Below are positions 2,458-28,400 of a DNA stretch of 37,520 bases, piece by piece. Under the pieces are notes generated by a model that worked only from the letters and a program-made list of their open reading frames with translations, was not told where the DNA came from and did not search any database. The stretch is from a virus. The stretch spans positions 1 to 37,520 of IMG/VR virus record IMGVR_UViG_3300032092_000105, one strand, 5' to 3'. Both the position numbers and the translations under genes were made by a program. Position 1 is the stretch's first letter. The number at the start of each line of letters is the position of its first letter.

Positions 2458-2567
2458 TACTTACTCTCTTATTTCCATTCATCGTAGTAATAATGTCCCT
2501 CTTGTACTTAGGGGGATGGTTTTTTAGTTCAATGTGGTCAGCACAGGAAAAGATAGACAATGAATAA
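2454..2567 (+). CDS. Very small membrane protein, 37 residues
   Basis: Its ATG overlaps the preceding stop (ATGA at 2454-2457) and its end overlaps the next gene by 8 bases, a chain expected of coupled translation. The peptide is almost entirely hydrophobic at residues 2-26 (core ILTLLFPFIVVIMSLLYLGG), followed by a short polar tail SAQEKIDNE. One membrane span; function unknown. Confidence 0.6.
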   Translation: MILTLLFPFIVVIMSLLYLGGWFFSSMWSAQEKIDNE

Positions 2568-2958
2568 ACAAATCATTAGCGCCAGCGAACTGGCACGACA
2601 AGTAATCAAAACATACGAGCAAGGTGATGGTGAACTAATTACCGGCATTGAGTTCCATAACAGCGAAAACGGTCGCACTAAGCACCGTATCAATATTAAT
2701 GGAACACTTGAAACCAAGTTGTATATGCAGCATGAGCGCATGTCTCCTGCTATGTATGGCATTTACATTACTATCTACGATGGCGCATGGACACTGCGCA
2801 CACAGGGTTACTACGATGAAGTAAATGTTGAATACACATCTACTAACACCGAAATGCAATACACGTTTATGCAACTACGTGAATGGATGAGTGATTTTGT
2901 TGAAACTGTGTACCAACTCAAAGCAGCTGAAGTACACGGAATCGTCGTTATCCCTTAG
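2560..2958 (+). CDS. Hypothetical protein
   Basis: A 132-residue protein with an AGGAAAAG site. It has a mostly beta-like central part (about residues 25-95, rich in Tyr, Thr and Ile) and a C-terminal helix (LREWMSDFVETVYQLKAAEV). No signature known to me. It is the last gene before the first copy of the repeated pseudoknot leader, which begins 6 bases after its stop. Confidence 0.7.
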   Translation: MNKQIISASELARQVIKTYEQGDGELITGIEFHNSENGRTKHRININGTLETKLYMQHERMSPAMYGIYITIYDGAWTLRTQGYYDEVNVEYTSTNTEMQYTFMQLREWMSDFVETVYQLKAAEVHGIVVIP

Positions 2959-2964
2959 TTATAC

Positions 2965-3000
2965 GTGAGGGGTGCGTCTCACTAACAACGCATAGAAAGA
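2965..3000 (+). promoter_or_regulatory. Pseudoknot-forming leader repeat, copy 1
   Basis: A 36-base element almost identical to two others at 4034 and 4577. Stem 1: GTGAG (2965-2969) / CTCAC (2978-2982). Stem 2: TGCGT (2973-2977) in the loop of stem 1 / ACGCA (2988-2992) downstream. Crossing pairs with loops GGG and TAACA fit a compact H-type RNA pseudoknot. It fills the gap between genes; the 3' arm ends 17 bases before the ATG at 3010. Here base 2993 is T, where the other copies have C: a G-U instead of a G-C pair extending stem 2. No T-run follows, so it is not a terminator. Confidence 0.7.
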
Positions 3001-3009
3001 GTACACACA

Positions 3010-3204
3010 ATGACTGAACAAGACAAGATTTGGGTCACCATCTGCCAGTGGGTTAGTAACATGGAGTTCCTATCCACCATGGTTGGCATGGACTTTGCTT
3101 TACCTGTGCCACTAGAACGTGAAAATCAACAGACACTGCTTGAGTTCATGCAAAACTACAATATGAATCAAGCCAAAGAATACAACAGATTGAGGAGTTT
3201 ATAA
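3010..3204 (+). CDS. Small hypothetical protein after pseudoknot leader
   Basis: A 64-residue soluble protein, mixed helical, unrecognised. The only ribosome binding site is the weak purine run AGAAAGAG at the end of the repeat, so the leader is likely to influence its translation. Its stop shares a base with the next ATG (TAATG at 3202-3206). Confidence 0.65.
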   Translation: MTEQDKIWVTICQWVSNMEFLSTMVGMDFALPVPLERENQQTLLEFMQNYNMNQAKEYNRLRSL

Positions 3205-3530
3205 TGTCGCCTATTCATCACCACAAAATCATTGTGCTCAAGTTTGCATATCTTCATGTCCATCCCGGCGGTGGAATTGAGAAAACAATCTTACTCACAC
3301 CAAGTTTTCAAAGATTCCTTGATCGTGAGGCACGTCAACATCTTGCAGAACTACTTGACTTCATCGATGCTCACGTTCCACATCAAGCACGTACTAGAGA
3401 TGGCTTTGATGAATGGCACAACGAACGAGCAACAGAAGATGAAGTAACTGTTTATGTGCAATGGGTTGATGCACTAACACCAATGCCAAGACCTACTGGC
3501 TGGGAGGAGGTAGATACATCGCATGGCTAG
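3204..3530 (+). CDS. Hypothetical protein
   Basis: A 108-residue protein with a strong GAGGAG site inside the preceding gene. It has several His residues (SPIHHHK; HVHPGGG; DAHVPHQ), a helical middle (RFLDREARQHLAELLDFIDAH) and a beta-like end. The His clusters could bind metal, but I cannot assign a family. It overlaps the next gene by 8 bases. A second frame inside it (3232-3447) is a shadow. Confidence 0.65.
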   Translation: MSPIHHHKIIVLKFAYLHVHPGGGIEKTILLTPSFQRFLDREARQHLAELLDFIDAHVPHQARTRDGFDEWHNERATEDEVTVYVQWVDALTPMPRPTGWEEVDTSHG

Positions 3531-3771
3531 ATATACCTATCACAATCAGATGTATGACTTTCAAGGCCGAGAAATCGGCCTTCCTGATGTTTATACAACT
3601 GCATTAGCTGCACAAAAAATTGCTGGACTTCACGTTTACTGTGATCCAACAATTATGCACATTAGAATCTCGCGATGCCTTGAGCATACATATGAGTTCA
3701 AACCGTATGCCATTGTTTACATGAACATTGTTGCTGACAAACCTGTAAGTTCTAAAAGGAGAATATTTTAA
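3523..3771 (+). CDS. Hypothetical protein
   Basis: An 82-residue protein. GGAGG lies about 13 bases upstream, a little far, so translation may depend on coupling through the 8-base overlap. Tyr-rich with an alternating pattern suggesting a small beta fold; basic C-terminus (SSKRRIF). No family recognised. Confidence 0.65.
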   Translation: MARYTYHNQMYDFQGREIGLPDVYTTALAAQKIAGLHVYCDPTIMHIRISRCLEHTYEFKPYAIVYMNIVADKPVSSKRRIF

Positions 3772-4026
3772 ATGAAATGCGATTGGGATGTTGTAATGGG
3801 TTCCTTAGTTCTTGAGGAATTACTCGAAGAAAACTTGATAACTAAAGATCATTACAATCATATGTGGGAAATATTTAAAGATAAGCAAGACGATGTCAAC
3901 TGGGTTTTACTCGATATGTCTGAAGTGTTATTAAATCTTGAACAAGATGATTGTGACAAGATCATTGCCTACTTAACAAAAGAGTGTAACCTCAAGAGTT
4001 TCACTGAAGCTAAGATCGCCATCTAA
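3772..4026 (+). CDS. Hypothetical acidic helical protein
   Basis: An 84-residue protein starting directly after the previous stop with an AAAGGAG site. It is acidic and Leu-rich, probably all alpha, with many Asp and Glu (KDKQDDVNWVLLDMSEVLLN). Acidic small phage proteins are sometimes inhibitors of DNA-binding host proteins; this is only a general analogy. It ends the first leader-headed cluster; copy 2 of the repeat begins 7 bases later. Confidence 0.65.
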   Translation: MKCDWDVVMGSLVLEELLEENLITKDHYNHMWEIFKDKQDDVNWVLLDMSEVLLNLEQDDCDKIIAYLTKECNLKSFTEAKIAI

Positions 4027-4033
4027 TTTTTAT

Positions 4034-4069
4034 GTGAGGGGTGCGTCTCACTAACAACGCACAGAAAGA
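4034..4069 (+). promoter_or_regulatory. Pseudoknot-forming leader repeat, copy 2
   Basis: Same 36 bases as copy 1 apart from one C/T difference. Stem 1 pairs 4034-4038 with 4047-4051; stem 2 pairs 4042-4046 with 4057-4061, extended by a G-C pair (4041/4062). The 3' arm ends 17 bases before the ATG at 4079. It fills the gap between the genes ending at 4026 and starting at 4079. Confidence 0.7.
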
Positions 4070-4078
4070 AACATAATC

Positions 4079-4570
4079 ATGTCTATCGAATTGTACACAA
4101 AGTATTTCCGCGAAGCTCTTCTCGCTGTTCCTGCTAAAGTAGCAGACGGCACACTGTATTCGTACGGTGGCTACCATGTATGTTCACATACAGATACCGT
4201 TGAACTCAACGGGCATTACATATCAATGGAGTACAAGCTGCGTATGGACGTAGCTAATGGTGAAGAAAAGACTCTTCATCCTATTCCTCTTGTTCAAATT
4301 GAACTGACTATGACATTGCGTCCTGACAAGGATAGCCGTGACACATCGTCATTTATGACCAAGATCATCAAGGTTCAGCTTAACAGCGAGACTCTTGAAG
4401 AGCAGATTGATGAAGCGATCCAGACACTGGAACGTGTCATCATCGATGTCAAGTTGCCAACTATAGCTTTTGATTTCTGGAAGTATGTTGCTACGGCAAT
4501 GCCAGACTTTGAGAAGCAGGTGTCTAAAGCGATTGTGACTAATCATAATCGCCTGTCCTACAAGGACTAG
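4079..4570 (+). CDS. Hypothetical protein after pseudoknot leader
   Basis: A 163-residue protein, unrecognised. The first two thirds look beta-rich (alternating Tyr, Val, Thr), followed by helices (ETLEEQIDEAIQTLERVI) and a further helical tail. Its only ribosome binding signal is the purine run at the end of the repeat element. It is a single-gene unit between copies 2 and 3 of the repeat. Confidence 0.7.
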   Translation: MSIELYTKYFREALLAVPAKVADGTLYSYGGYHVCSHTDTVELNGHYISMEYKLRMDVANGEEKTLHPIPLVQIELTMTLRPDKDSRDTSSFMTKIIKVQLNSETLEEQIDEAIQTLERVIIDVKLPTIAFDFWKYVATAMPDFEKQVSKAIVTNHNRLSYKD

Positions 4571-4576
4571 TTAGAT

Positions 4577-4612
4577 GTGAGGGGTGCGTCTCACTAACAA
4601 CGCACAGAAAGA
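4577..4612 (+). promoter_or_regulatory. Pseudoknot-forming leader repeat, copy 3
   Basis: Third copy. Stem 1 pairs 4577-4581 with 4590-4594; stem 2 pairs 4585-4589 with 4600-4604, with a further G-C pair (4584/4605). It begins 6 bases after the stop at 4570, and its 3' arm ends 15 bases before the ATG at 4620. Spacing to both flanking genes matches the other copies closely. Confidence 0.7.
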
Positions 4613-4619
4613 GAACACA

Positions 4620-4856
4620 ATGAATAAAACAACATGGTACCAACGCAAAATCAAACTTGATGACGGCGCTGTCATTTCAATCATCTGCAAAGATGACATT
4701 AGTTATGGTCACGCAGATAATTTATTTGAATGCGCCTTGATCAATCCAGATGGTTGCATAGATGATAATTCAGTTACAGGTTATCTAACCTTTCATCAGG
4801 TTGCAGAATACATCGATAAAGCAATGGAGAAACACAATGACAATAGGAACAGCTGA
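4620..4856 (+). CDS. Small hypothetical protein after pseudoknot leader
   Basis: A 78-residue protein. The start is ATG 4620; an in-frame non-ATG start at 4584 would lie inside the repeat and is rejected. The N-terminal half looks beta (TTWYQRKIKLDDGAVISIIC), the C-terminal half helical. Unrecognised. It overlaps the next gene by 20 bases, beginning a coupled run through 5997. Confidence 0.65.
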   Translation: MNKTTWYQRKIKLDDGAVISIICKDDISYGHADNLFECALINPDGCIDDNSVTGYLTFHQVAEYIDKAMEKHNDNRNS

Positions 4857-11307: not shown

Positions 11308-11902
11308 TCCACGTGATCACTTTATCAACCTAAAAGGTAAGCAATATTTACCAGTCGCCGCCCGTATCGCTTGGTTCAGAGAAGACCATGTAGATTGGAC
11401 GATTAATACATATCCTGTGCCCGACCTTTCGGGCACAGACTACTGTACTTTTGCTGCCGAGATCTTAGACGATGAAGGCAAGTTGATTGCAAAAGGACAC
11501 AAAACAGAACACGAAAAACACTTTGCTGATTATCGTGAAAAGGCAGAGACTGGATCTATTGGTCGTGCTCTTGCCTTATGCGGATACGGAACGTTGTTTG
11601 CTCAAGAGCTAGAGGAACCTATTACTCAAGCTGGAGATATGCGTATTGTTGACACCCCACAACCAACAAAAGCAAAACTAACACCGGGAAAGCAATTTGC
11701 ATATGAGTGCAAACGCATATGGGGATCAGACATTACACCAAGTGATATGAAGCGAGTGTTCTTCAAGTTAGCTGGACACAACGATACTACAGATCAAAAC
11801 CTGCGGTTAGTCATAGAAGTACTAATGGGATTCAACACACCGGAAGAAGCAGAAGCAGTATTTTTGACAATAGAAGAAGAAGGACTCAATGGACAAATCT
11901 AA
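11300..11902 (+). CDS. Rad52-like single-strand annealing protein
   Basis: A 200-residue protein with AAGGAG 7 bases upstream. Residues 12-33 (KGKQYLPVAARIAWFREDH ...) and 75-98 (FADYREKAETGSIGRALALC ...) match a family of phage and plasmid proteins of Rad52/Erf-like type: a beta-sheet start, then the AETG-SIGRALAL helix before a Gly-Tyr-Gly turn. Such proteins anneal complementary single strands in phage recombination. The C-terminal about 70 residues (KLTPGKQFAYECKRIWGSD onward) form a separate small helical region. Cluster context with nuclease and Gam-like protein fits. The exact subfamily is not resolved. Confidence 0.7.
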   Translation: MFSPRDHFINLKGKQYLPVAARIAWFREDHVDWTINTYPVPDLSGTDYCTFAAEILDDEGKLIAKGHKTEHEKHFADYREKAETGSIGRALALCGYGTLFAQELEEPITQAGDMRIVDTPQPTKAKLTPGKQFAYECKRIWGSDITPSDMKRVFFKLAGHNDTTDQNLRLVIEVLMGFNTPEEAEAVFLTIEEEGLNGQI

Positions 11903-12452
11903 GTTTGACGTTATCGGAGATAGTTACTACGACATCGAGACTGGCGAGTATGCTGGCCCTGTTGATGGCTGGTTAGGTGAGGAACTGGCATCAGAAGATC
12001 AAGTACTTCTGGCAATGCAACGCTTGTTGCAATATGAGACCGAACTCAAGGCACAGCAACTAGCAATGCAGTCTGTTGTAGAACGATGCAAGTCTATGGT
12101 CAAAGACAAAGAGCGCAAGGTTCAGTGGTTACAGTCTCGTTATGGCGCTCAAATTGCAGATTTTGCCAAAAAGCAGTTGACTGGTAAAGCTAAAACATGG
12201 AAGTGTCCATGGGGACAAGTTGCTTTCCGCAACTCGCAACCAACGTTTTCTATTCTTGATGAAGAGAAAGCAGCGTATGTAATTCCATTGTCATTAGGCG
12301 CAATCAAGATTGAGCATAAAGTTTACAAAAGTAAGATACCAAAAGAAGTTCAACTTACACTTGTAGATCAATACCCAGATCTGTTCAGTATGACTGAAGC
12401 ATCTGAAAACTTTAGCATAAAGTCATTGACAGCAACCGATACTGAGGAGTAA
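11889..12452 (+). CDS. Gam/gp157-like protein, putative nuclease inhibitor
   Basis: A 187-residue protein with AAGGA upstream, overlapping the previous gene by 14 bases. It has a helical/coiled-coil region (about 35-95: LLQYETELKAQQLAMQSVVE, then CKSMVKDKERKVQWLQSRYG), then GKAKTWKCPWGQVAFR (99-114) and a Val/Ile-rich end. The coiled coil followed by K-T-x(3-4)-G-x-V-x-F-R resembles Mu Gam-type host-nuclease inhibitors and siphovirus gp157 proteins. Gam-like proteins bind DNA ends and protect them from RecBCD-type nucleases. Assignment between the two families is open. Confidence 0.65.
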   Translation: MDKSKFDVIGDSYYDIETGEYAGPVDGWLGEELASEDQVLLAMQRLLQYETELKAQQLAMQSVVERCKSMVKDKERKVQWLQSRYGAQIADFAKKQLTGKAKTWKCPWGQVAFRNSQPTFSILDEEKAAYVIPLSLGAIKIEHKVYKSKIPKEVQLTLVDQYPDLFSMTEASENFSIKSLTATDTEE

Positions 12453-13870: not shown

Positions 13871-14301
13871 CAGCAACAGATAAGTTATTAGCAGTACTCT
13901 CACAACTGCCTAGTTCAATTCAATGGAATGAGACTAGCCAGACCGTCTATCGTGTGGCTATAAACGGGCTTACAGATGACGACATTAAAGGTGGATGCCA
14001 AAGGATTCTTACCCGGTGTAAGTTTAGACCTACGCCATCAGAAGTTCTTAACTACATTGCGATAGAGAAGTACGGTGATGCTCAACCGCATATGGTTACG
14101 CATGACATCAGTGAAGGCATCAGACTAGGAACTGACCCAAACAAACTTCATCCAACTGTAGTACTTGTACTAAAGAAAACTGGCGGATATAGAGCGTGGA
14201 GGGTCGAACCACCACTAAAGGGTCAGCAGTTGCAAGACGTAATTAATGAAGTACACATTGTCAGGTTAACGGATTACATTAATGAACAAAGAAGCAAATA
14301 G
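13867..14301 (+). CDS. Putative helicase loader
   Basis: A 144-residue, mostly helical protein between initiator and helicase genes, with GAGGAG upstream and an ATGA junction. The pattern (MTATDKLLAVLSQLP start; LTDDDIKGGCQRIL, TRCKFRPTPSEVLNYI) resembles small helicase loader proteins of Gram-positive phages (gp39/G39P-type), which deliver the hexameric helicase. Similarity is in pattern and location, not in a firm motif. Overlaps the helicase gene by 20 bases. Confidence 0.55.
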   Translation: MTATDKLLAVLSQLPSSIQWNETSQTVYRVAINGLTDDDIKGGCQRILTRCKFRPTPSEVLNYIAIEKYGDAQPHMVTHDISEGIRLGTDPNKLHPTVVLVLKKTGGYRAWRVEPPLKGQQLQDVINEVHIVRLTDYINEQRSK

Positions 14302-15661
14302 AAGCCTTGGCTTCAACATAGAAGTTCCATCGGATGTTATGAGTGAGCAATCACTCATAGCATCTGTGCTTTTAGGTGGCAATCGTTTACTTAGATCACT
14401 AACAGCAATAGATAAGTCAATGTTCTATCGTGTGTCACACAGCCTGATTTGGGAATCATATGTTGCAATTGATAAAGCAGGTCAGGACATTGACATCGTA
14501 ACTGTTAATGAAGAACTGACAAAGCGTAATGCATTAGAGCCAGCTGGTGGCCTAGCGTACATTATGCAGTGTGCAGAGTTACTTCCAACTACATCAAATT
14601 ATGAGAGTTATGCAAAGTTAGTAACTGATTACCACAGGCGTAGAGAAGTTATCTTTGCTTCTGAGTTTGCAAGTAAGCGAGCATCTATAGGTGATGATGA
14701 TGTTGAGACAATCGTAAAGGATTTAAATAACTCTGTTACGTTTATCAATTCCGGAAACGATACTGATGATTTATCTAAATTAATATGGGACACAACTAAC
14801 GAGGCTATACTTAGAGATGAAGACAAGCTAGACTTTTCAATCGGATCTGGCTACAACGACATTGACACAATCACAGGAGGGTGGCGCAACGGTGAACTAA
14901 TTATACTTGGTGGTAGGCCGTCAATGGGTAAGTCTAGTCTTGGATTGCAATATGCATGGAATGCAGCTAAGTTTATGAGAGGCTTAGAGGAAAAGACCGG
15001 AGTGCTTATTGTTAGTGCAGAGATGTCAAAGGACATGGTCACTGCACGTATGTTGTCAATCTACAGTGAAGTGGATAGTCAAGTTATACAGACTAAGAAA
15101 CTGAATAACTATCAAAAAGATCAGCTACATAACGTAGCTAGAGAGGCTAAGTCACTTCATGTTAGGATTGTCGCAGATAAAACTGTCACCCTTGGAGGAA
15201 TTAGAGATGCCATTAGAGCCACACAAAAATCTTTTCATGTTGGCTTGGTGGTTGTTGATTACCTACAGATGATTGCGATGCCTAGTTCCTATAAGTCTGA
15301 GAATAGAACTAGAGATATCGGCGTTATTAGCCGTGGGTTGAAAGATATTGCACGTGAGTTTGGATGTCCTGTCATTGCGCTATCTAGTTTGTCTCGTGCT
15401 GTAGAGCAACGACAAGACAAGCGACCGATGATGTCTGATCTCAGAGAGTCTGGTGATATCGAATCAGACGCAGACGTAATTCAGTTCATCTATCGTGCTG
15501 GTTATTATGATAAGAAACAAGATAGTGAGTATGAGGAGCAGTCAGACAAAGCAGAGGTTATTACAGCTAAGAATAGAAATGGCAGAACCGGGGTGTCACT
15601 ACTTGAGTTTCATCCCCGGTTTGCTAAGTTTACTGACTACGGACTAGACGGTCTTCTTTAG
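14282..15661 (+). CDS. dnaB: DnaB-type replicative DNA helicase
   Basis: A 459-residue protein of normal length for the family. The N-terminal domain (EQSLIASVLLGG, 22-33) is that of DnaB. The RecA-like core has Walker A GRPSMGKSS (211-219), the EMS segment (SAEMSKDM, 245-252), Walker B LVVVDYLQM (322-330), SSLSRAVEQRQDKRPMMSDL (368-387) and RESGDIESDADVI (388-400). It unwinds the phage replication fork as a hexameric 5'-3' helicase; the genes before it are likely its loader and initiator. A weak ribosome binding site and the overlap suggest coupling. It ends 18 bases into the convergent lysin gene; no strong terminator follows directly. Confidence 0.95.
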   Translation: MNKEANRSLGFNIEVPSDVMSEQSLIASVLLGGNRLLRSLTAIDKSMFYRVSHSLIWESYVAIDKAGQDIDIVTVNEELTKRNALEPAGGLAYIMQCAELLPTTSNYESYAKLVTDYHRRREVIFASEFASKRASIGDDDVETIVKDLNNSVTFINSGNDTDDLSKLIWDTTNEAILRDEDKLDFSIGSGYNDIDTITGGWRNGELIILGGRPSMGKSSLGLQYAWNAAKFMRGLEEKTGVLIVSAEMSKDMVTARMLSIYSEVDSQVIQTKKLNNYQKDQLHNVAREAKSLHVRIVADKTVTLGGIRDAIRATQKSFHVGLVVVDYLQMIAMPSSYKSENRTRDIGVISRGLKDIAREFGCPVIALSSLSRAVEQRQDKRPMMSDLRESGDIESDADVIQFIYRAGYYDKKQDSEYEEQSDKAEVITAKNRNGRTGVSLLEFHPRFAKFTDYGLDGLL

Positions 15662-16431: not shown

Positions 16432-19400
16432 CTAAGGTCCTTGTAACATTCTCTGAATTTCAGTATTGCTCAACGGTTCAAACTTTTTGACAAATCTGCG
16501 CTTTTGTTTTGCGCGTAATCTTTCAGTTTGAGGAGTACTTTCAAATATGACTGGAGATGTCGGCATTCCGGGATAACTAATATCCTGCAATGTTGGATCT
16601 CCACTGTCAGGAATACCTTCCCAAAGAGCAGATATTCCATGAGCGTTCATCACATCTAATGCGTTGGGGTAATCGTATTCATACCTGCGCATTTCAGACA
16701 ACACAGTAGACATCGAGGTATTTAATGCCTTGATGTCAGATACTTGATCAACATATGGACTTTGATATGCATTTTCAATACCAACTAAGCGACCAAACAT
16801 CGACATTCGTAAATTATACGTCTGTGGATCAAAACGCATATCTGGCGTGTTAGTCTTGTACACCATGGTTTCAAGGTCACGTAAGAAATTCTGTATAGGA
16901 ATAATTTCGTGATTTGCAGCCATGCGACTCATGCCATTTGGATATTGCATTAGTATTTTACGAACCAATAATTGATATGGGTGTCCCTGCAATGCAGAAA
17001 GAACCTGCTCTTTATTAGCTCTTAAGTACTCAAATCCAATGTGCTTACCAAATGATGCAGTTCCATTCCACTCTTGCCCACTGTACATAGAGTACAACGT
17101 CTGATACTGGGGGTTTAACCTATCAATAAAGTATAAACGCGCCATTTCAGCAGCAATAGCTTGTGGAGCCGGGGTTCCTAATTCTATTTCTTGATTAATG
17201 TTCAACATCGGTGCAGCAATAAACTTATGCCACCCCATAATTGCCGGTGGATAGTTTAACTGAGTGTCTCCAATTGTTCTGACCTTGCCATACTCACGTA
17301 GATTTTTAGGATCTATTACAGGTTTGGTTTTTACAGTCCACATTGGCTGCGTGTCAGAATTTGCACCAATACTAGCAACGTGTGACCAGATTGTATCTGA
17401 TACTTCTGTTCCAATATTTTGTGCAATTGCATGCTTAGATGCTTGTGCAATAACTGCATTATTAATATGATGCAAAGCCATCAATCCAACCAAAGCAGTT
17501 CCTGCGCGTCTCGCCCATTCTTGTCCAGCAGTTTTAATTCGAGTACCAGCTTGTGGTGTATTAAATTGTAGTGCGTCAAAGAATCTAGCTTGTGGTCCAA
17601 CATCAACAACGTTATAACCAATGCCACCGTCAAATCGTTTAACGATCGGACGTATTGCGTTATTTAGCATCATTCCAGTGCCCATCTGTAAAGCAGCAGG
17701 TATCAAAGAAATATTACCAACAGCCTTAAACCAGTTTGGAGCTAAATAAAGTTGAGATGCTTGGTAATACTTTTCCTGTATCTTTGGATTTAATCCGGGA
17801 TCAGTACCAGACGGCACACCAGTAAGAGTATTCAATACACGTGCGTAGTTTTTCTTGTATTGAGATGCAACGTAATTCATCTGACCTTCACTTGGTGTAT
17901 CACCTAAACCAAATGCAGGTAAGTTCTCATCAACGTATGCTAGATACTCAAGCATCATCTTAATGCGCAAAATATCTGTACTCATAACACCAGCTCGTTC
18001 GGTAGCTCCAACAAATGGATATCTTTGTGCAAGAACACCTTTACCAATAAATTCACTTTGTGACAACTGGATAGGCACATCTTCTAAAGCCATTGATGGA
18101 TTAAGTGCTTGCATGGCAGCAGCTGCTTCATACCATTCACCATATTGAGTACTCAATCCAAGCTCATTTAGATCAGCAATTGTATATTGGCGCCGTGGCA
18201 TATTGACTCCAGATACAACAGGTTTGACATATTGACCACGAACAGTACGTTGATGTACTAATGGAATTCCATATCCAATCTTACTGCCCGGAGTTCCATA
18301 CTTATCAAACAAGCCAGACATTACCGCGTGATAAGCCTGATCGCCGTGAGCAGTATCTTTAGAATGTCCTAATGCCCAACTAGCCAACTTCTGTAATGGT
18401 GTTGTGCCTAAAGCCCTAGCAGCACCCGGCTTAGTATAATTTGGCAGTAACCCAGCTAATCCATAAAATTGCATTGCTGAATTTTTTGGATCTAAAAATG
18501 CAACCATAAAGTTCTGTAAGAATGGCCTAGCAAAGTCCAAACTCAATCGCATCACAATATTGGATGCATTTAATTCTGTCCAAGCTCCATTTAAAAACTT
18601 ATTGAGTTTAGTGCGTCCGGGAACAATACGATACTGCAACGCTCTCATTTGATTAGGCGACAACGTAAACGATGGGCGTGTTGAGCCAGAACTTAAAAGT
18701 GTATTGCCAACAGTCTCATAATCAGCCGATGGAATAGCCATGTAAACGTCTTTTCCATCTATAGATACACCTATCTGGTTATTTACAGGATCATTCTTTA
18801 AAATCAGACGTTCAGGCTCATCAAATACAAACATCTTGTCAACGATGTCCGTATATCGTTGTTGTCTCCATTCATCAAATGCTTCTGGATCCAAATGTTT
18901 CTCTGGATCATACGGCTCTAATCCTGATACTAAATTCATTTCTTCATCAGTAAATGGTTCAACTGCATCTTCAAAAATATCACCAGAACTTAACCAAGTA
19001 CCTTTGCGAGCATTATTGACAATAGCAGATTGCGTAATATCAATTTCCATTCCAGCTTCTGGTTGCACAATCTTAGACACGCGATAATCATTGCCCATTT
19101 TTGTGCGCCATTCAGCAGGAATGACTGATGGATCGTTGTGTTCAGCCTCTGCAACGAGCATTTTGGCAACAAACACATCATGGGGGATGATAGTGTTTTT
19201 AGTTAGGTTATCCAATCTCTCGTAAGCTTCTGGTGTAGCATCCGGCATCCATGCAGCAGCAGCCAAACGAATAAGTTCTGAAGAACTTTGCTGGCGGTAT
19301 TCCTGAACACTTCTTAACTCAGTGACAGTCCCGTTATCATCTGTCACAGATCGGTAACTCAAGAATGGATTAGACAGCAATTCAACTTTATATGGAATAC

Positions 19401-22400
19401 TCTCGTCAATCTGCGACTTAGGATCAACAATCTTCATTCGCTTTGGACTACTGACTCTATATAAATAGATGCCATCATTTAATCCGGAATCATGGAATGG
19501 CTTACTGCGCATAATAACGACAGAACCATTACGCAGATAATCGGTTTTTTCAATCGGTGAAAGAGAATTGATATCAAAAATGCCGTCTGGTATTTCACCG
19601 TGAGCAGCAGCTTGAAATCTCATTCTGTAACCCGGAGTAGTTATTGGGTATCGATTACCTAATACGTCTCCGCGTATTAACTGCATTGGATTCGTAGGGT
19701 CGATGCTTACTGGACGCGACTGATTTAAAGCAAAGTCAACATTGTATAAACCACCCGAACCATCTCTCATTAGCAACATCTTGTTTGTTTTAAATGAATT
19801 AGGTACAAGTGTAAATCGTTGGCTTTTCCAGTTATATCTAGCAGAAGACATTTCACGTTCTTGTAAATCAAGAATATGCGATGTTGCATATAGTAACTGT
19901 GTAGCCTTTTCATTCACAGACGGATTTGGATCAGTCAATTGCTTTAAGAAGTTAGAGTAGCCAGCAATATTGTTGCGACCAAATACAACGTCACGGACAC
20001 GAGACAAGGCATATGCTGCTCCAGTAGAGCGGTAATAGTTATCCGAAAACCGTAATTCTTGCCCACTTTTGACTGTGTCCATAATGTCAAGCAACTGCAA
20101 CGGATAACCTTGAGTAAAGAAATCACCAACGTCATTACCACGTATCGGCATTTCCATTGCGGATATGGCGTCAACTGCAATTGGTTGATCTTTATATTGC
20201 TGAATTGAGGACGTCGATAACTGAAGGTCATCTGGTAACCCTTCATTGAATGCAGAAATCACTGAAGCAATTCTGTCGTGCATACTAATATTACGGTCTG
20301 CGCGTTTGTTACCAGCGTCCAGTGGTTTAGAAAACGCATAGTACATGTCATATGCAAATTGCTCTAGCATATCTTGACGATCGGTAACAGATAAATCTTT
20401 TGCTTTGTAATCTAATGCATTGTCTAATTGGTCAAAGAATTGGACCATGGCTCCGTATTCAGGAGCATCGACGTTAAGTACGAATTCAGATGTATCCGTA
20501 TCATAAGTAAATCGTGAGTCGTACATCATTTGGTCGCGACCAATAGACATACGGAATAGGCCATTATTGTAAATGAAGTCACCAACCGGATTAATTGCAT
20601 TGCGGTTCAAGGCACTAATAAAGTCTGTTCCCTCTAGTGTAATACCTCCCTCGTCGTTTATTAATCCTTGTGTGTTCATAAAGTCAACAAGATCAGCCTC
20701 AACTGATGCCCTGCCAACTTTCATCATGCCACGCATATCAACGCCAGCTGCACGTACATGCTTAAACTGATCTGCAAAATACGCGCTAATTCTGTCAGAA
20801 GCAGTCTCTGTATCTGGACGCTTTGCTTGGAAATCTACAGCTGTTCCAGTCAATATCTTTTTCTCTAATGCAACTTGATCAGAGTAATCAGCATAACCAA
20901 CCATTGACTTCTGTATCTGTGAAATACGTCTGTTAATGTCATACAAAACAGCAGAGAACTTACTGTTGTATTCACCAGAGTAACCATGCAAGCGAGGTTG
21001 ATTTACACCATCAAGGTCAGCCAATGCCTCACTACTTACTAACATACGCACAGTAGTGTTTCGAGCTATTGCTTCTTTACCTCTACCCATACGTAATGTA
21101 ACAGGTACTTCTAATACATAATATGAACTCTTTAGCGGTGCAGATTCATATTGCTTCTCAATACCAGCGGATGTTGTTTTTACAAATTTACCAGTAGATA
21201 CGTCACGGTCAACTAAATGCAACTGTGTTGGGAAGAATCCATCTTTATCTATAATTCCATCTTGAGCAACACTCACATAAGTAATTTCTTGACCACCGAC
21301 GTTATCAACAAATGCAGTCCTGAATTGCCCGCGATTCAATCGAGGATTGATAGCAACTATCTGATCAACAACACGTCCCTGTAAACGCATTGCATAACGT
21401 GGCGAAATAGATAATTCATCACCATGTAGTCGTAGTTTACGTTGAGCTGAAGATATTGGGGTAAACCAGAAATCACGCTCATTGTATTTACCGTCACGAA
21501 CCATACTGATAAATAATTCAGTAATAGTCTTTTCTTTGAATGGTGAATTAATCTTTCGATCACCTACATAGTGTTCGTAGCCATATGTCTGTCCTACACC
21601 CTCACCAAAAGCAGACTGCACCCAAATACGTGCAACATCTTTTGGTGAATACATGTGCACATACGAGCGTCCTTCTAACTTACCCATTGTCGGGACGTTA
21701 ATACTGACGTAATCATCCTTGCGCAATTGTGGATAAGTAACAGTTCGACGACCTGTTTTATATTTTGCAAACGGAATAGGTGATGTCCACTGCTGTTGAA
21801 ACTTACCATCTACAGTGCGCAAAATATCAGCTGGACTTTGTCTAGCTAAGTTTTTCCATGCTGCGCGTAATGGGCCACCAACCTCTTGGAAAATTGCTGC
21901 AGCATCCCTGTCGTATGACATTGCAGCATTGTTTGCAATAGGTGACTCAAAATTTGATAACGCAGTCAGAAAGCCACTTGCAAATATTTCGTGAGCAAAT
22001 GGATGCCAATCATCAGTCAATGAAATTCCATCAATAGGCTCTAAATTTGCCCATGCAGCTTTTAAGTCTGTTGATTTAAAGTCATTGCGATATTTTCGCG
22101 CTGCATCCAATTGAACTATAACTGGATATAACGGATGCGTCTCATTGATTTTTGATAAGAACTCTGCACTTTGCGGAATCAATGCATCAAGTAACCGCAA
22201 TTGATTTCCGTCGGAAACTCCATGGAATAGCACATGGCTAACTTCATGAGCAAGAGTTGCAGCATTACGATCTGCACTCATGTCACTAGCAATCATCATT
22301 AACTTATGCGCTGCTTTTTGACTTTTACTCTCTAAGTTCAGAAGCGTACCATACACTTGTTGTTTTGATGACCCAGTACCAAGGTGTTCTCTCATAGACA

Positions 22401-25400
22401 CATTGGTTAATTCCATAATTTTCTTAGTGGTAAACAATACCTTTCCACTATTTAAGTAGTAGTCTTGTCGCCCACGAGCGAGCATGTATGAGCGAAAAGC
22501 GTTTACTTGCTCAGGAGTCAGAGCTTTAGTGTTTTGCATAAACTGTGCAAAAGACATTGCGTTCTCTCTTATAAACGCCTGTACAAGTTGCTCTTTTGTG
22601 CCAACAGCACGTAAGCCATTAATGATTTCTGTACGGTGTTGCGGCAGTTGGCTACCTAGCAACATTGATAACTTGTCATTAGCATGACCAAACGCAAAGT
22701 TGTCATACAGTCTAGCAAGTCCTGTGGCTAGTTGATTGACCATCTGTAAATCGCTGGCCATTTTCTTAGCAGGTGCTTGAGCAGCATCAGCCATAATTCC
22801 GCGATAAACACCCTTAATTCTATTGATGTTATCTATCTGATCTTGATTCGTGTACTCAGATAAATCAATTTGGTTGTACATATCGTACAAAAGTTTGGCT
22901 GTTGCTGGCTGTATTCTTCTAAGTTCACCTTCAGTTGGCTCTGAAAAGATTGTGTAACGCCCACTCTGATTAGTTGTAAATGCAACGGCTTGTTCTCCAG
23001 CGTCAGTTAAACCACGTATTGTAGTTGCAATTTGATGCTGTACGTCGTTGTATCCTTCTCGGAATGTTGCATAAGAGCCAGTCTTATCAATACTTGACCA
23101 CTGTCGTAAAAACACATTACTATGCGTTTGTGCTAGTAGTGTTTTCTGCCAATCACTTTTGCCGTTTGTCTCAGATTCAATAATCATTCTCACAAAATCG
23201 GCTAATTCTTGTGCGCTAAAATTAGTGTCAGCTGTTGATAGTCCTTTAAATAAAGTATCTATTCTGTCTGTGATTCTTTTTATTACTTTGTAGTCAGATG
23301 CTTCAGGCAGTACTTTTAATCCACCTTCTATATTAAGGCCATCTTTTGTCTTATTAATTGTACGTATAGTCTCATTGCGCCATCTACCTTGAGCAGCATC
23401 TAAAGCTCCAATGTGACTCATGCGTGTTTTTGCTAAACTAACGTTTCGCATTGGAGAAACTACTGTTTCTGGATTGATTGCTGCTACTTGCTTATCGCCA
23501 AACAATCTAACCTGTGCATCTGGATTATCAGGGGAAGACAATTCCAATTCACTAGTTAGCACCTTGCTCAACAAGTCTCTCATGCCAGCAAAATTGCGAG
23601 CATGTAATGCTAATAACTTTGCTCGATCAGATGCATTCTGATCGTGAAGCACCATTCCGTTAAAACCACTCTCGCTATTTAAAGCATATGTAACGACAGA
23701 TGGGTCATCACTTAAAAACTCGGCCATTGTTGGATCTATTGCTGAAGATACAAACATAGCATCTTCAACAGTGACATCAGGATTCATCTTTACGATGTCT
23801 GGGTTGTCACGATCAATTGCGTAAGCCATATTTTCAATGTCTGCCACATTGCGTTTTTGGCCAAAGATGTTAATGCTGAGATCACCGTTTTCAACATCAA
23901 TTGAAATCTCTTGAGATTTCATTGCATCGGACAGGAATGTCAATTGGTCTTTAGCCATTTGGCTAACCTGCCGAATCATGCGAACAGATGCTTCACCAAA
24001 AGCACGTGCCCTACTTGTACCAATCTCACGTACAGAATCGTTACTCATTGACTCGTACATGTTTTGCATAATAGAAAGTTGTATTGCCAACACATCTTGT
24101 GGTGAATCAGCAAATCGTTCTAGTAATGGCTGCGGAACACTAGTTAAGGCTGTATTAAATTCTCGCAATGCCTTTACAAATCGCTCCTTTACAGTAGCTT
24201 CTGGCTCTTGTGATGATCCCTTACGCCGGTATGCATTTAAAGCTTCTTGAAGAATAGCTAGTTGCTCTTGTTTTTCACGGACACTAAGACGTGTGTCCGC
24301 TTGTACCTCTCGTATTCTGTTTTGTACTAAAGTTGCTTGTGCCTCATCACTTACAGATGTAAACGACTGTGTATCAGAAACAGCACCTTCCTCGCCTTGC
24401 GATACTATGCGACCTTGTGCCACATCTGCATAACCCAATGTAATATCGGAACTAAAACTATAGCCTTCTTCCGTGTATACATTTTTTAGGCTTTCATACG
24501 CTGATTCTAATGCGCCTAACGCAAATTCAAACCTTTGATTTACATGAACATCGCCATCCATGTACAGTAAATTTAACTGTGTAGCGTTAGCAATAATATT
24601 CTCCATATGCTTAAACGCTGCAAGAAATGTGTTTCTGCGTGGTTCTATTTCGTCTTTATACGCCTTCTTTAGCGCATCTTCGTCACCAGATTGCTCAGCA
24701 CGTTTTCTGTTTTCAAGGGCAACATCGTACCCATAAATAGATGCATATTTACTAATTAATGCATCTACATCATCTACTTTAAAAGTACTAAGGGCGTTGA
24801 TAACTGATGTAAAGTTTTTAATATTTGTAAGGCGGTTGACTGTCAGTTGCCGTAAAGCAGCCGTATTGCCCTCCTCAAGCGCAACTTCAGCTAGATCTAA
24901 GTCCGTAGGCCTATTCTTATTCTCTCCAGCAGAAACAAATTCATCTACGACAGCATGACTCATTACTTCTTCAGTAACTTGATTGATACTCATCATAGAG
25001 TCAACTGCCGTCATGTTTGCAACACTGTTGCCATTACGCAATGTTACATCAACGCCGGGGCCAGCCTCAGTTCCAGTATAGTTAGCAACTCGGCTTGCAA
25101 TAGCTGGGTTTTCATCTACCTGATTAAGCAAGTCATATAAAGCATTTGAGATAGATTCTTTATCGGCCAGCGGTAGGTTTGAACGCTGTACGACGTCACC
25201 AATTTCACGACCAAATTTTGACAACACAGAAAGGAAAGCAAGTTCATTGGTTTGATCTGCACTTCCATCCTCGGTAAATCCTAAGAATGTATTATTTTCT
25301 ACTGACTCACCAATAGTGTCTATAATGATCTTGGGAATAACAGAGTTGGCAACATATAAGTTAGACTCACGCTGAAAGTCACGGAACGCTTCTGCATTAG

Positions 25401-28400
25401 TTGTCAATGTTCTGCGATTCAATACTTGGTCTTGATCTATTGCTGCATAGTACAAAAAGTCAAGACCTTGCTCACGCAACATGCGCTCAGTCTGACCGTT
25501 TGTTTCAACAGTTTCGGCGAGAGCCATCTTGCGTACAGCACTTAATGCTTGATTGTAATAGTTTTCTCCACGCCAGAAATCTACTAAATTAACAGGTAAA
25601 CCTGCGTCAGCTAATAATTTACGGGCATCGACAACATTAGACGTTGATGCAATCGCACGACCAAGTCTTACTTGAGCATCTAAATTCAATCCGCTCAAAC
25701 GTTTCATGTGCCACAGATTCTCAATATGCGCTATAGCCTGTGGTGCTATACCACGCATGTATGTAGCTTCTGCTTTTGCATCACGTTCTACAGTGCTATT
25801 CTTTTCAATAGTTACACCGAGAGATTTGATCGCTCTCTTATATGCTTCACCTTGACTAATCTTGTTTGGAGAACGCAACAAGATTTGATTCATGCGACGT
25901 GCAATAGCTCTTGTTGTCGCTGCCTGTTGTATAGATCGAGCAGAAAACAAACTTGCCTTTGGAATGTCTGTACTTAAATCATCAATCGTATATAAAGTGT
26001 CTAAGAATCTTTCATCACCGTAGATGTCAGCAACACGATTTAAGTAATGAATATTTGGAGACAACTCCGACATAGCATCATCATAGACAGACACCAAGGC
26101 GTCAATGACTGCTTCACTGTTCTGGTTAGTAGCTGCCCATACAATTAAGCCACTTTTGACTGCTTGTGGCATCGACCGTGTTTCACGAACATATGTTCGG
26201 ATGATGTCAGGTAATTCTTCTGCAGACGCTTGACGTATTTCACGCTGTACGTCTACGGCGTTTTTAGTTGCAACAAATATTGCAATCTCTTCATCGTCAG
26301 CCAATGCACGTTTGTATGGTCGCAATGTAGGCATTTCTTCCGACGGGGTGAATTCACTTAGTCTTTGATTTAGTTCCTCGCGACTATGATGAGTGTCTAA
26401 CACGACACGGTCAATAGGTGCAGTGTAACCAATGCCTTCTGGGTCAGATAATAATTTAACTGTAACTAATCTGCCATCAGATTTAATTACAACACCTTTT
26501 TGCCCATCATCATTAATCTCAAGTGGGTCAAATTGACCAATAACAACGTCTCCGGGCAATAAATCGGCATCCTGCGTAGGATCACCGTCCTCATTTAAAC
26601 GATACGCTTTGCTATCAGGAGCTATGTCTAATGCTAATGTTTCAGCAATTGCATTACGTAATGCCGTTGCTTTTTCAGCATCTGGTAATCCAGAGTCCAT
26701 AATACTTTTTGCAAGCTGAATTTGATCAGCCGTCAACATAATGCGTGTTGGCAAACCGATGTTATGTACGTCTAGGTCTATATACCCTTCACTAGCGTCA
26801 ATAGATCTACGCGCTTGTGCTAATGTTCTTGCGTTTAATGCTTCTGGACTACTATCAATCTGACGTGATGTAAGAGGCATTTTTGTGCGCACTGCCTTAT
26901 CACGAATTGGTTGCACATAGATACTTCCACTCTGCAATTGAAATACACCAATTGGATCTTGTATGCCAAACGTTGCAATCAAACGTCCATTTACATCACG
27001 TTTAACTCCACCAACTGTCGTATATGCAACACGATCCGGAAAGTCTTGACTTTCGTAGTAATCGGGCACATCGGCTAATTCAGTCTTATTAGAGTTCATT
27101 GCCTCTAATTGGCTGCCTATAGCCTCAGATAATTTTGGTTTTAATGTTGCAATTTCACGTGCAACCTGAATACTAGGCACTGCCTCTTCTGATACTTCAC
27201 CTGTCACAGAATTATGAGACTTTATGATGACTGCGCCATCTTCGCGGAATCCACCAATAGTGCGAATAGATTCACCATCAGCAGATGTCCATCTGTTTAA
27301 AACGAGCGGATTCAATACATCAGGATTAGCTGCAACAACACGTGCTAAATTTTCAGCAGTGTGGATTCTATTCCGAGCCATGTTTACATCGGAGCTAATA
27401 TCTATTAAGTCGGAGATATCTTGATCTCCACGCACAATTTCAGCTGATCTAAAAGTATGCCCATACCCAGTTTTATGTGAGTTATACGCAATGTACTGTG
27501 GTGTACCATCTTCGGCATCTTCAATGCGAACAGCGTAAAACTTATCACCTTTAGTCTCGATAGTTGTTTCAGGTGCCTCTTCAGGTTGAGGTTGCTGTGT
27601 TTGCGATTGCTCAACAGACTTCTGTAATTCAATAGCAATCTGCTTTTGCACTTCTGCAATTTGTGCCTTTTTTGCAACTGGATCTAATACATACAGCTTA
27701 GGGTTAACAGCATATTTAAGCAATGGATTGTCATCGGCAAGTGGAGCATTGTCGCCATTTTTGCGCATTGATGAAATTAACCTATTAGTCTCAGCCTGAG
27801 ATGTTTCACCACTTTCGTGCGATAAACCTTTACCTTCTGCAAGGTTAATAAACATGCCTTCAATTGCATGCTGTGGTAAGACGCGCCCCTTACTTAACTC
27901 TTCTAAAGCAGGTGCCTTTACCATTTCGTAAATAGCTGATGCAACACGTTTCATGTCATCAGGGTTAGGTTGCTCGTTGCCAGTCAATTCCTTATATCGT
28001 TTAGCAACATATGTAGATCGCCAGTCACCGCCGTCTACATAGTCTTTAGCCATAAAGTATGCTTGAGCGTTTATATCTGCACCAGTAAACATTGGCTTCC
28101 CACGTAAAGCCGGTTGAACAAACGGAGCAATTTTTTTACCCGGACGAGTAGCACCAAAAGTTAATAATGTTGCCTTGGCTAAATCCATCACTGATGGCGG
28201 TTGATATAAACGATTGCCTTCTTTATCAACTGATTTATCTGTAGCAGCACGATATGTTTGCGCTACTGGCTGGAATACATTGTTTAACGCAAACGCTGCA
28301 TCAGGTCCAACCGAACCAATTAATTCAGCTTTTTGTCTAGCTAGTCTTTGCCCTGCAGCAACATACTTACCAGGTTGCGATGCACCCGCTCGTGAAAGCA

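Follow-up and report, generated by a model that had tools for sequence, protein, structure and literature searches.

Three gaps between genes in the viral record IMGVR_UViG_3300032092_000105 each hold a nearly identical short element a few bases ahead of a start codon, and the locus raises the question of what these elements are and what they do. Throughout, the window is the whole stretch of DNA that was analysed, 37,520 bases long (positions 1 to 37,520 of that record). The original prediction, made from the letters alone, had read the elements as 36-base leaders that fold as an H-type RNA pseudoknot and act as a shared translational control site, with a DNA operator as the main alternative.

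Sequence, pairing and placement in the window

The 28-nt core, composed in order of GTGAG, GGG, TGCGT, CTCAC, TAACA and ACGCA, is present in three identical copies on the + strand, at 2965, 4034 and 4577. All three match GTGAGGGGTGCGTCTCACTAACAACGCAYAGAAAG with 0 mismatches, compared with 0.00 in dinucleotide shuffles. An H-type descriptor run over the + strand of the window returned these three copies only, with 0 or 1 matches in mononucleotide shuffles, and the pattern match, the shuffles and the descriptor together confirm three near-identical elements that fill gene gaps. The motif YAGAAAG lies directly 3' of each core. Although the repeat does extend to 36 bases within the window, its conservation is lost past about base 29 in relatives. 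The cores begin 6, 7 and 6 nt after the upstream stop (copies 1, 2 and 3), in agreement with the 6-7 bases first described. The predicted 15-17 bases from the element's end to the ATG were recovered for the 28-nt core (17, 17 and 15 nt) but not for the full 36 bases, from whose end the distance is 7-9 nt.

The pairing originally proposed, GTGAG/CTCAC enclosing TGCGT, which pairs with ACGCA downstream, was right about stem 1 and about a second stem, but the register of stem 2 was one base off. In 31 distinct sequences, pair 13-24 of that register was unpaired in 11, while pair 8-29 was kept in all 31 as G-C, G-U or A-U, and we therefore place stem 2 at 8-12/25-29. Base 29, which had been noted as variable yet always paired, is the outer base of stem 2. 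The element is thus supported, at the level of sequence, as a putative 29-nt H-type RNA pseudoknot. The features around it are listed below; the three pseudoknots are assigned from the sequence, the exact pattern match and family covariation.

2560..2958 (+): 132-aa ORF preceding copy 1, from a family that stays constant here in relatives; no Pfam or PHROG match
2965..2993 (+): predicted pseudoknot, copy 1; stem 1 2965-2969/2978-2982, loop 1 2970-2971 (GG), stem 2 2972-2976/2989-2993, junction base 2977, loop 3 2983-2988 (TAACAA)
2994..3009 (+): spacer 1, A-rich and unstructured, with the weak SD AGAAAGAG, before ATG 3010
3010..3204 (+): 64-aa ORF behind copy 1, opening an overlapping or abutting run
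3204-3530, 3523-3771 and 3772-4026: ORFs behind the 64-aa ORF
3772..4026 (+): the last of these, an 84-aa ORF upstream of copy 2
4034..4062 (+): predicted pseudoknot, copy 2; stem 1 4034-4038/4047-4051, loop 1 4039-4040, stem 2 4041-4045/4058-4062, junction base 4046, loop 3 4052-4057
4063..4078 (+): spacer 2, A-rich and unstructured, weak SD, before ATG 4079
4079..4570 (+): 163-aa ORF between copies 2 and 3; no Pfam or PHROG match
4577..4605 (+): predicted pseudoknot, copy 3; stem 1 4577-4581/4590-4594, loop 1 4582-4583, stem 2 4584-4588/4601-4605, junction base 4589, loop 3 4595-4600
4606..4619 (+): spacer 3, A-rich and unstructured, weak SD, before ATG 4620
4620..4856 (+): 78-aa ORF led by copy 3, heading an overlapping run; the gene in this slot varies in relatives

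In the window and the relatives grouped with it (the window group), the knot-led gaps measure 49-52 nt and lie amid genes that mostly overlap or abut. The distance from stop to knot is 4-8 nt in most copies and is tighter than that from knot to start. A makes up 59% of the spacer between knot and ATG, and 56 of the 58 distinct spacers examined were predicted to be unfolded. Predicted SD pairing was modestly weaker at knot-led genes than at other genes (mean -4.2 vs -5.5 kcal/mol, p=0.005), a comparison that rests on automatic ORF calls, which upholds the weak ribosome binding sites originally described. Site A, the first of the sites, is without the knot in one relative (L021) and has a strong SD, AGGAG, there. 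Relatives keep the same upstream gene at sites A and C, and the genes after the knot there are unrelated between them. Members of the same downstream gene families carry the knot when first in line and none at other positions; at 3204 and 5085 in the window, such homologues, as judged by eye, start overlapping and without a knot. The knot thus marks a site rather than a particular gene.

Elsewhere in the window, a Mu Gam-like end-protection match was found at 11889-12452 (phrog_491, E 3.4e-8) and a DnaB-like helicase at 14282-15661. Positions 16432-29811 on the - strand form one ORF of 4459 aa, in surroundings that look like a structural region.

Distribution and covariation of the two stems

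The exact 28-mer was found in 26 other IMG/VR contigs and in none of the GTDB species genomes, and a BLAST of the DNA gave no match of the element to named phages. A relaxed pattern scanned over 84,980 species genomes returned 32 stretches, with full stem-1 pairing in a single contig (L080). Relaxed scans combined with the descriptor over the fetched loci yielded 116 non-redundant elements from several unrelated environmental phage groups, nearly all of them intergenic and on the coding strand. These groups are arranged as follows.

Group 1, the window group: near-full records of ~60-66 kb, 1-3 copies each
Group 2, first arrangement: SSB-like gene, knot, tRNA-like element, primase gene (11 contigs)
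Group 2, second arrangement: SSB gene, knot, tRNA, primase-like gene (L242 and L247)
Group 3: DUF932-like gene, hairpin, knot, gene (L066, L213, L217, L218, L227, L232, L244, L249, L268, L292)
Group 4: knot as leader of an ERF recombinase gene (L241)
Group 5: knot as leader of an SSB-like gene with a weak phrog_378 match (L036, L106)
Group 6: knot downstream of a gene of 309 aa, possibly encoding a capsid protein (L299)
Group 7: phage-like contig of a Gammaproteobacteria MAG, two copies (L080)

Among the fragments compared, we found no protein family common to all phage groups, and searches of Rfam 15 at gathering and relaxed thresholds gave no relevant family. Judged by these comparisons of sequence, the element is a compact putative RNA family that is new to Rfam, of a known kind and unusually widely spread.

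Covariation was evaluated in the 31 distinct 29-nt sequences under the structure (((((..[[[[[.)))))......]]]]]. All cells were paired (100%), compared with 89.4% in shuffles and at most 53% in slid registers. Changes on both sides were seen in 6 of the 10 pairs, four of five in one helix and two of five in the other, and the covariation score was 0.296 vs 0.088 in shuffles, a control inflated by relatedness among the sequences. In a less biased test, the central core was fixed and stem 1 was left free together with pairs 8-29 and 9-28. The original prediction had named relatives that keep stem 1 and lose stem 2 as the pattern of a DNA operator. In this test, stem 1 was fully paired at 97 sites, and every one of them kept both free stem-2 pairs, while pair 8-29 was often broken at sites without stem 1. 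When stem 2 was freed and GAG/CTC and TAACA were fixed, 53 sites paired in stem 1, and 47 of these had all five stem-2 pairs. Across the three relaxed scans that left stem 2 free, only one contig (L106) deviates, with a compensated T-A to A-T pair. Stem-1 pairing was bimodal (five pairs, n=90; four, n=0; three or fewer, n=14), and the sites with three pairs or fewer are mostly chance matches; two contigs whose core matched with a stem 1 of only 3 pairs (L046 and L049) were excluded.

Across the family, stem 1 has 5 bp, and up to 7 bp in relatives, in many letter sets. The consensus continues with a GG loop 1, fixed in all scans, a stem 2 of RNGCG/CGCNY, of which GCG/CGC was fixed in most, one junction base and a YRACAA loop 3 that usually ends in ACAA. 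The nested folding energy of the element was ordinary, as given by a folding tool that cannot score pseudoknots. One knot with a 7-bp stem leads a gene with a match to Pfam Cas_VVA1548 (L054:6809-7135, - strand, E 3.4e-17), a putative CRISPR-associated protein.

Two interleaved helices, each with compensatory changes, were therefore recovered across unrelated phages, which is the test that the original prediction had itself proposed for its pseudoknot. Covariation in both stems supports an RNA pseudoknot and counts against a DNA operator. The GTGAG-N8-CTCAC palindrome on which the operator would rest is indeed an inverted repeat present in three gaps, yet its half-site letters are not constant: they co-vary in many ways with pairing kept, the centre and the downstream strand keep their letters, and stem 2 compensates too. 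These results contradict the operator alternative, to which we give almost no weight.

Proposed translational control and competing explanations

We consider it about an even chance that the knot is a cis-acting leader controlling translation of the downstream genes. It heads coupled runs, it is followed by an A-rich, unstructured ribosome binding site, and knot and SD appear to trade places, all of which point to a leader that sets initiation. Leader placement is also seen before the ERF recombinase gene of group 4 and the SSB-like genes of group 5. A trans-acting factor, whether an RNA-binding protein encoded by phage or host or a small ligand, would act through the knot on initiation at the spacer, setting translation of the first gene and, through gene overlap, of the whole run. 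The near-invariant core across unrelated phages suggests either a widely shared host partner or a tight triple-stranded fold. Two observations sit less well with a leader: one group has a tRNA or tRNA-like element after the knot rather than a start codon directly, and the stop-to-knot distance is tighter than a leader alone would need.

The closest parallel may be the gene 32 operator of T4 and RB69, an H-type pseudoknot of ~28 nt that leads into an A-rich region, unstructured and containing the ribosome binding site (PMC535899). In T4, the gene 32 mRNA pseudoknot nucleates gp32 on the unstructured site, and a pseudoknot with an adjoining unstructured region and ribosome binding site is found here as well. 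The core is constant across unrelated phages here, whereas it diverges among T4 relatives, and several unrelated genes carry the knot. Of the 14 near-full relatives searched, every one has a PF00436 SSB gene, in each case far from the knots, so autoregulation by SSB is not supported in the window group; a knot ahead of an SSB-like gene was seen only in L036 and L106, where the SSB match is weak. By analogy, the element would work in a manner resembling gene 32 operators, whether or not it belongs to that class.

The main rival, which we hold as tentative and clearly less probable than the leader, is a role at mRNA boundaries or in mRNA stability. The knot would block exonucleases or set a processing end, protecting the upstream message after cleavage, for example where RNase P cuts at the tRNA or tRNA-like element placed behind the knot in one phage group. 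We keep this reading in play because of the tight gap of 4-8 nt between stop and knot in most copies, unrelated phages included; because of the tRNA neighbours of group 2, where SSB gene, knot and tRNA or tRNA-like element follow one another in 13 contigs; and because of the Arthrobacter phages Amavida, Amigo and Molivia, in which a knot of the same shape and different sequence lies 6 nt after the SSB stop with a tRNA next. A constant upstream gene and a varying downstream gene at sites A and C would fit it as well. On the other hand, L242, L299, the L066 class and L241 have 34-64 nt or more between stop and knot, and a stop-linked position had to be rejected as a general rule since it fails in several groups. 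Stability alone would not require stem 2 to be invariant, except where the fold itself calls for it, and a boundary role leaves the weak SDs and A-rich spacers unexplained. The position, the spacer, the weak SDs and the strong SD in L021 fit the shared translational control site first proposed, with part of the probability going to a boundary role. A purely 3'-UTR role was hinted at by copy 2 of L080, which lies before a convergent amidase gene, yet the SD-like AAGGAG and a GTG follow it. As a broader alternative, possible though on balance doubtful, the element may be a phage-wide 29-nt minimal RNA operator or aptamer that answers one host-shared signal and sets translation of early and replication clusters in unrelated phages, with tRNA-like use in one group; the loop of the tRNA-like element would then pair with the SD of the following primase gene.

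A metabolite riboswitch, in which a minimal aptamer of the preQ1-I type would let a ligand control access to the ribosome binding site, is unlikely. The preQ1-I riboswitch is likewise a very small H-type knot with an A-rich loop 3 in an mRNA leader (PMC11625349). Conservation follows the pattern of ligand-binding H-type knots, in which stem 1 is free and loop 1, stem 2 and loop 3 are constant (loop 1 being fixed in our scans), and in L241 the SD comes directly after stem 2. The letters of loop and stem 2 differ from preQ1-I, however, and neither the preQ1 family nor any other in Rfam matched. Queuosine genes were not noticed in the vicinity, the genes behind the knots have no pathway in common, and no switching partner sequence was seen in the window group. 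Still less probable is a decoy against host defence modelled on pseudo-ToxI, the mimic of a type III antitoxin pseudoknot carried by phage PhiTE (PMC3475682). The element is a phage-borne pseudoknot of similar size in gene gaps, but its copies are single and dispersed with variable flanks, where tandem repeats and conserved cleavage flanks mark ToxI, and its core is constant across phages of seemingly different hosts. The start-associated sequence of cluster K mycobacteriophages offers a further likeness as a short repeated element before several unrelated genes of an actinophage. That sequence, SAS, is a 13-bp asymmetric GGGATAGGAGCCC lying 3-7 bp from the start, and RNA pairing was not supported for the ESAS repeats (PMC3203893); the present element differs in sequence and in spacing to the start. 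The element lacks at least one tested feature of each of preQ1-I, SAS/ESAS and ToxI mimics.

The placement of most knots 4-8 nt after a stop is also the geometry of recoding pseudoknots, and a knot acting on the ribosome at the upstream stop by readthrough, frameshifting or a barrier to reinitiation was weighed and found improbable. Luteovirus frameshift knots resemble the element in shape, with a 5-bp stem 1, a 2-nt loop 1, one junction base and an A-rich loop 3, and stand a few nt after a decoded codon. Here, by contrast, the knot follows stop codons and has a nearly constant five-pair stem 2, and no slippery heptamer was seen by eye. Gaps of 5, 6, 7 and 8 nt place different frames after the stop, so that frames are not conserved, in-frame stops lie within the knot for some gaps, and some knots are far from stops.

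Should the element prove to be an operator, a factor common to many hosts would be its partner, and whole runs of coupled phage genes would be under the control of one small site. It would also serve as a compact, clean model in which to test the effects of pseudoknots on bacterial translation or mRNA ends.

Neighbouring structures in other phages

In 11 contigs (L035, L037, L038, L043, L063, L209, L215, L221, L260, L283 and L301), a tRNA-like structure lies just 3' of the knot, with an acceptor, a long 'anticodon' arm and a canonical T arm; ARAGORN called no tRNA in those tested. Its loop is complementary to the SD of the primase gene, with a longest match of 7-10 nt (mean 7.6) at 10 loci, compared with 6.3 for swapped and 4.9 for shuffled pairs. 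ARAGORN likewise found no tmRNA in the window or the tested loci, and an identity of the element as tmRNA pseudoknot 1 was rejected. One locus before a primase gene (L302:1386-1468, ON045087.1) matched tmRNA in Rfam over just 83 nt (E 7.7e-22), a structure resembling tmRNA ends that leaves hardly any space for a tag ORF. Upstream of the knot in six contigs (L066, L217, L218, L227, L232 and L292) stands a hairpin with a CCTCC-type anti-SD loop, whose match to the SD was not clearly above chance in those six. Finally, a second type of pseudoknot, with a loop 1 of C or CU and a loop 3 ending in AAAC, was observed between SSB and tRNA genes in Arthrobacter phages (L304, L309, L312) and Microbacterium phages (L308, L315). 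Shuffles scored as well in 0 of 100 cases in the Arthrobacter phages and in 4-11 in the others.
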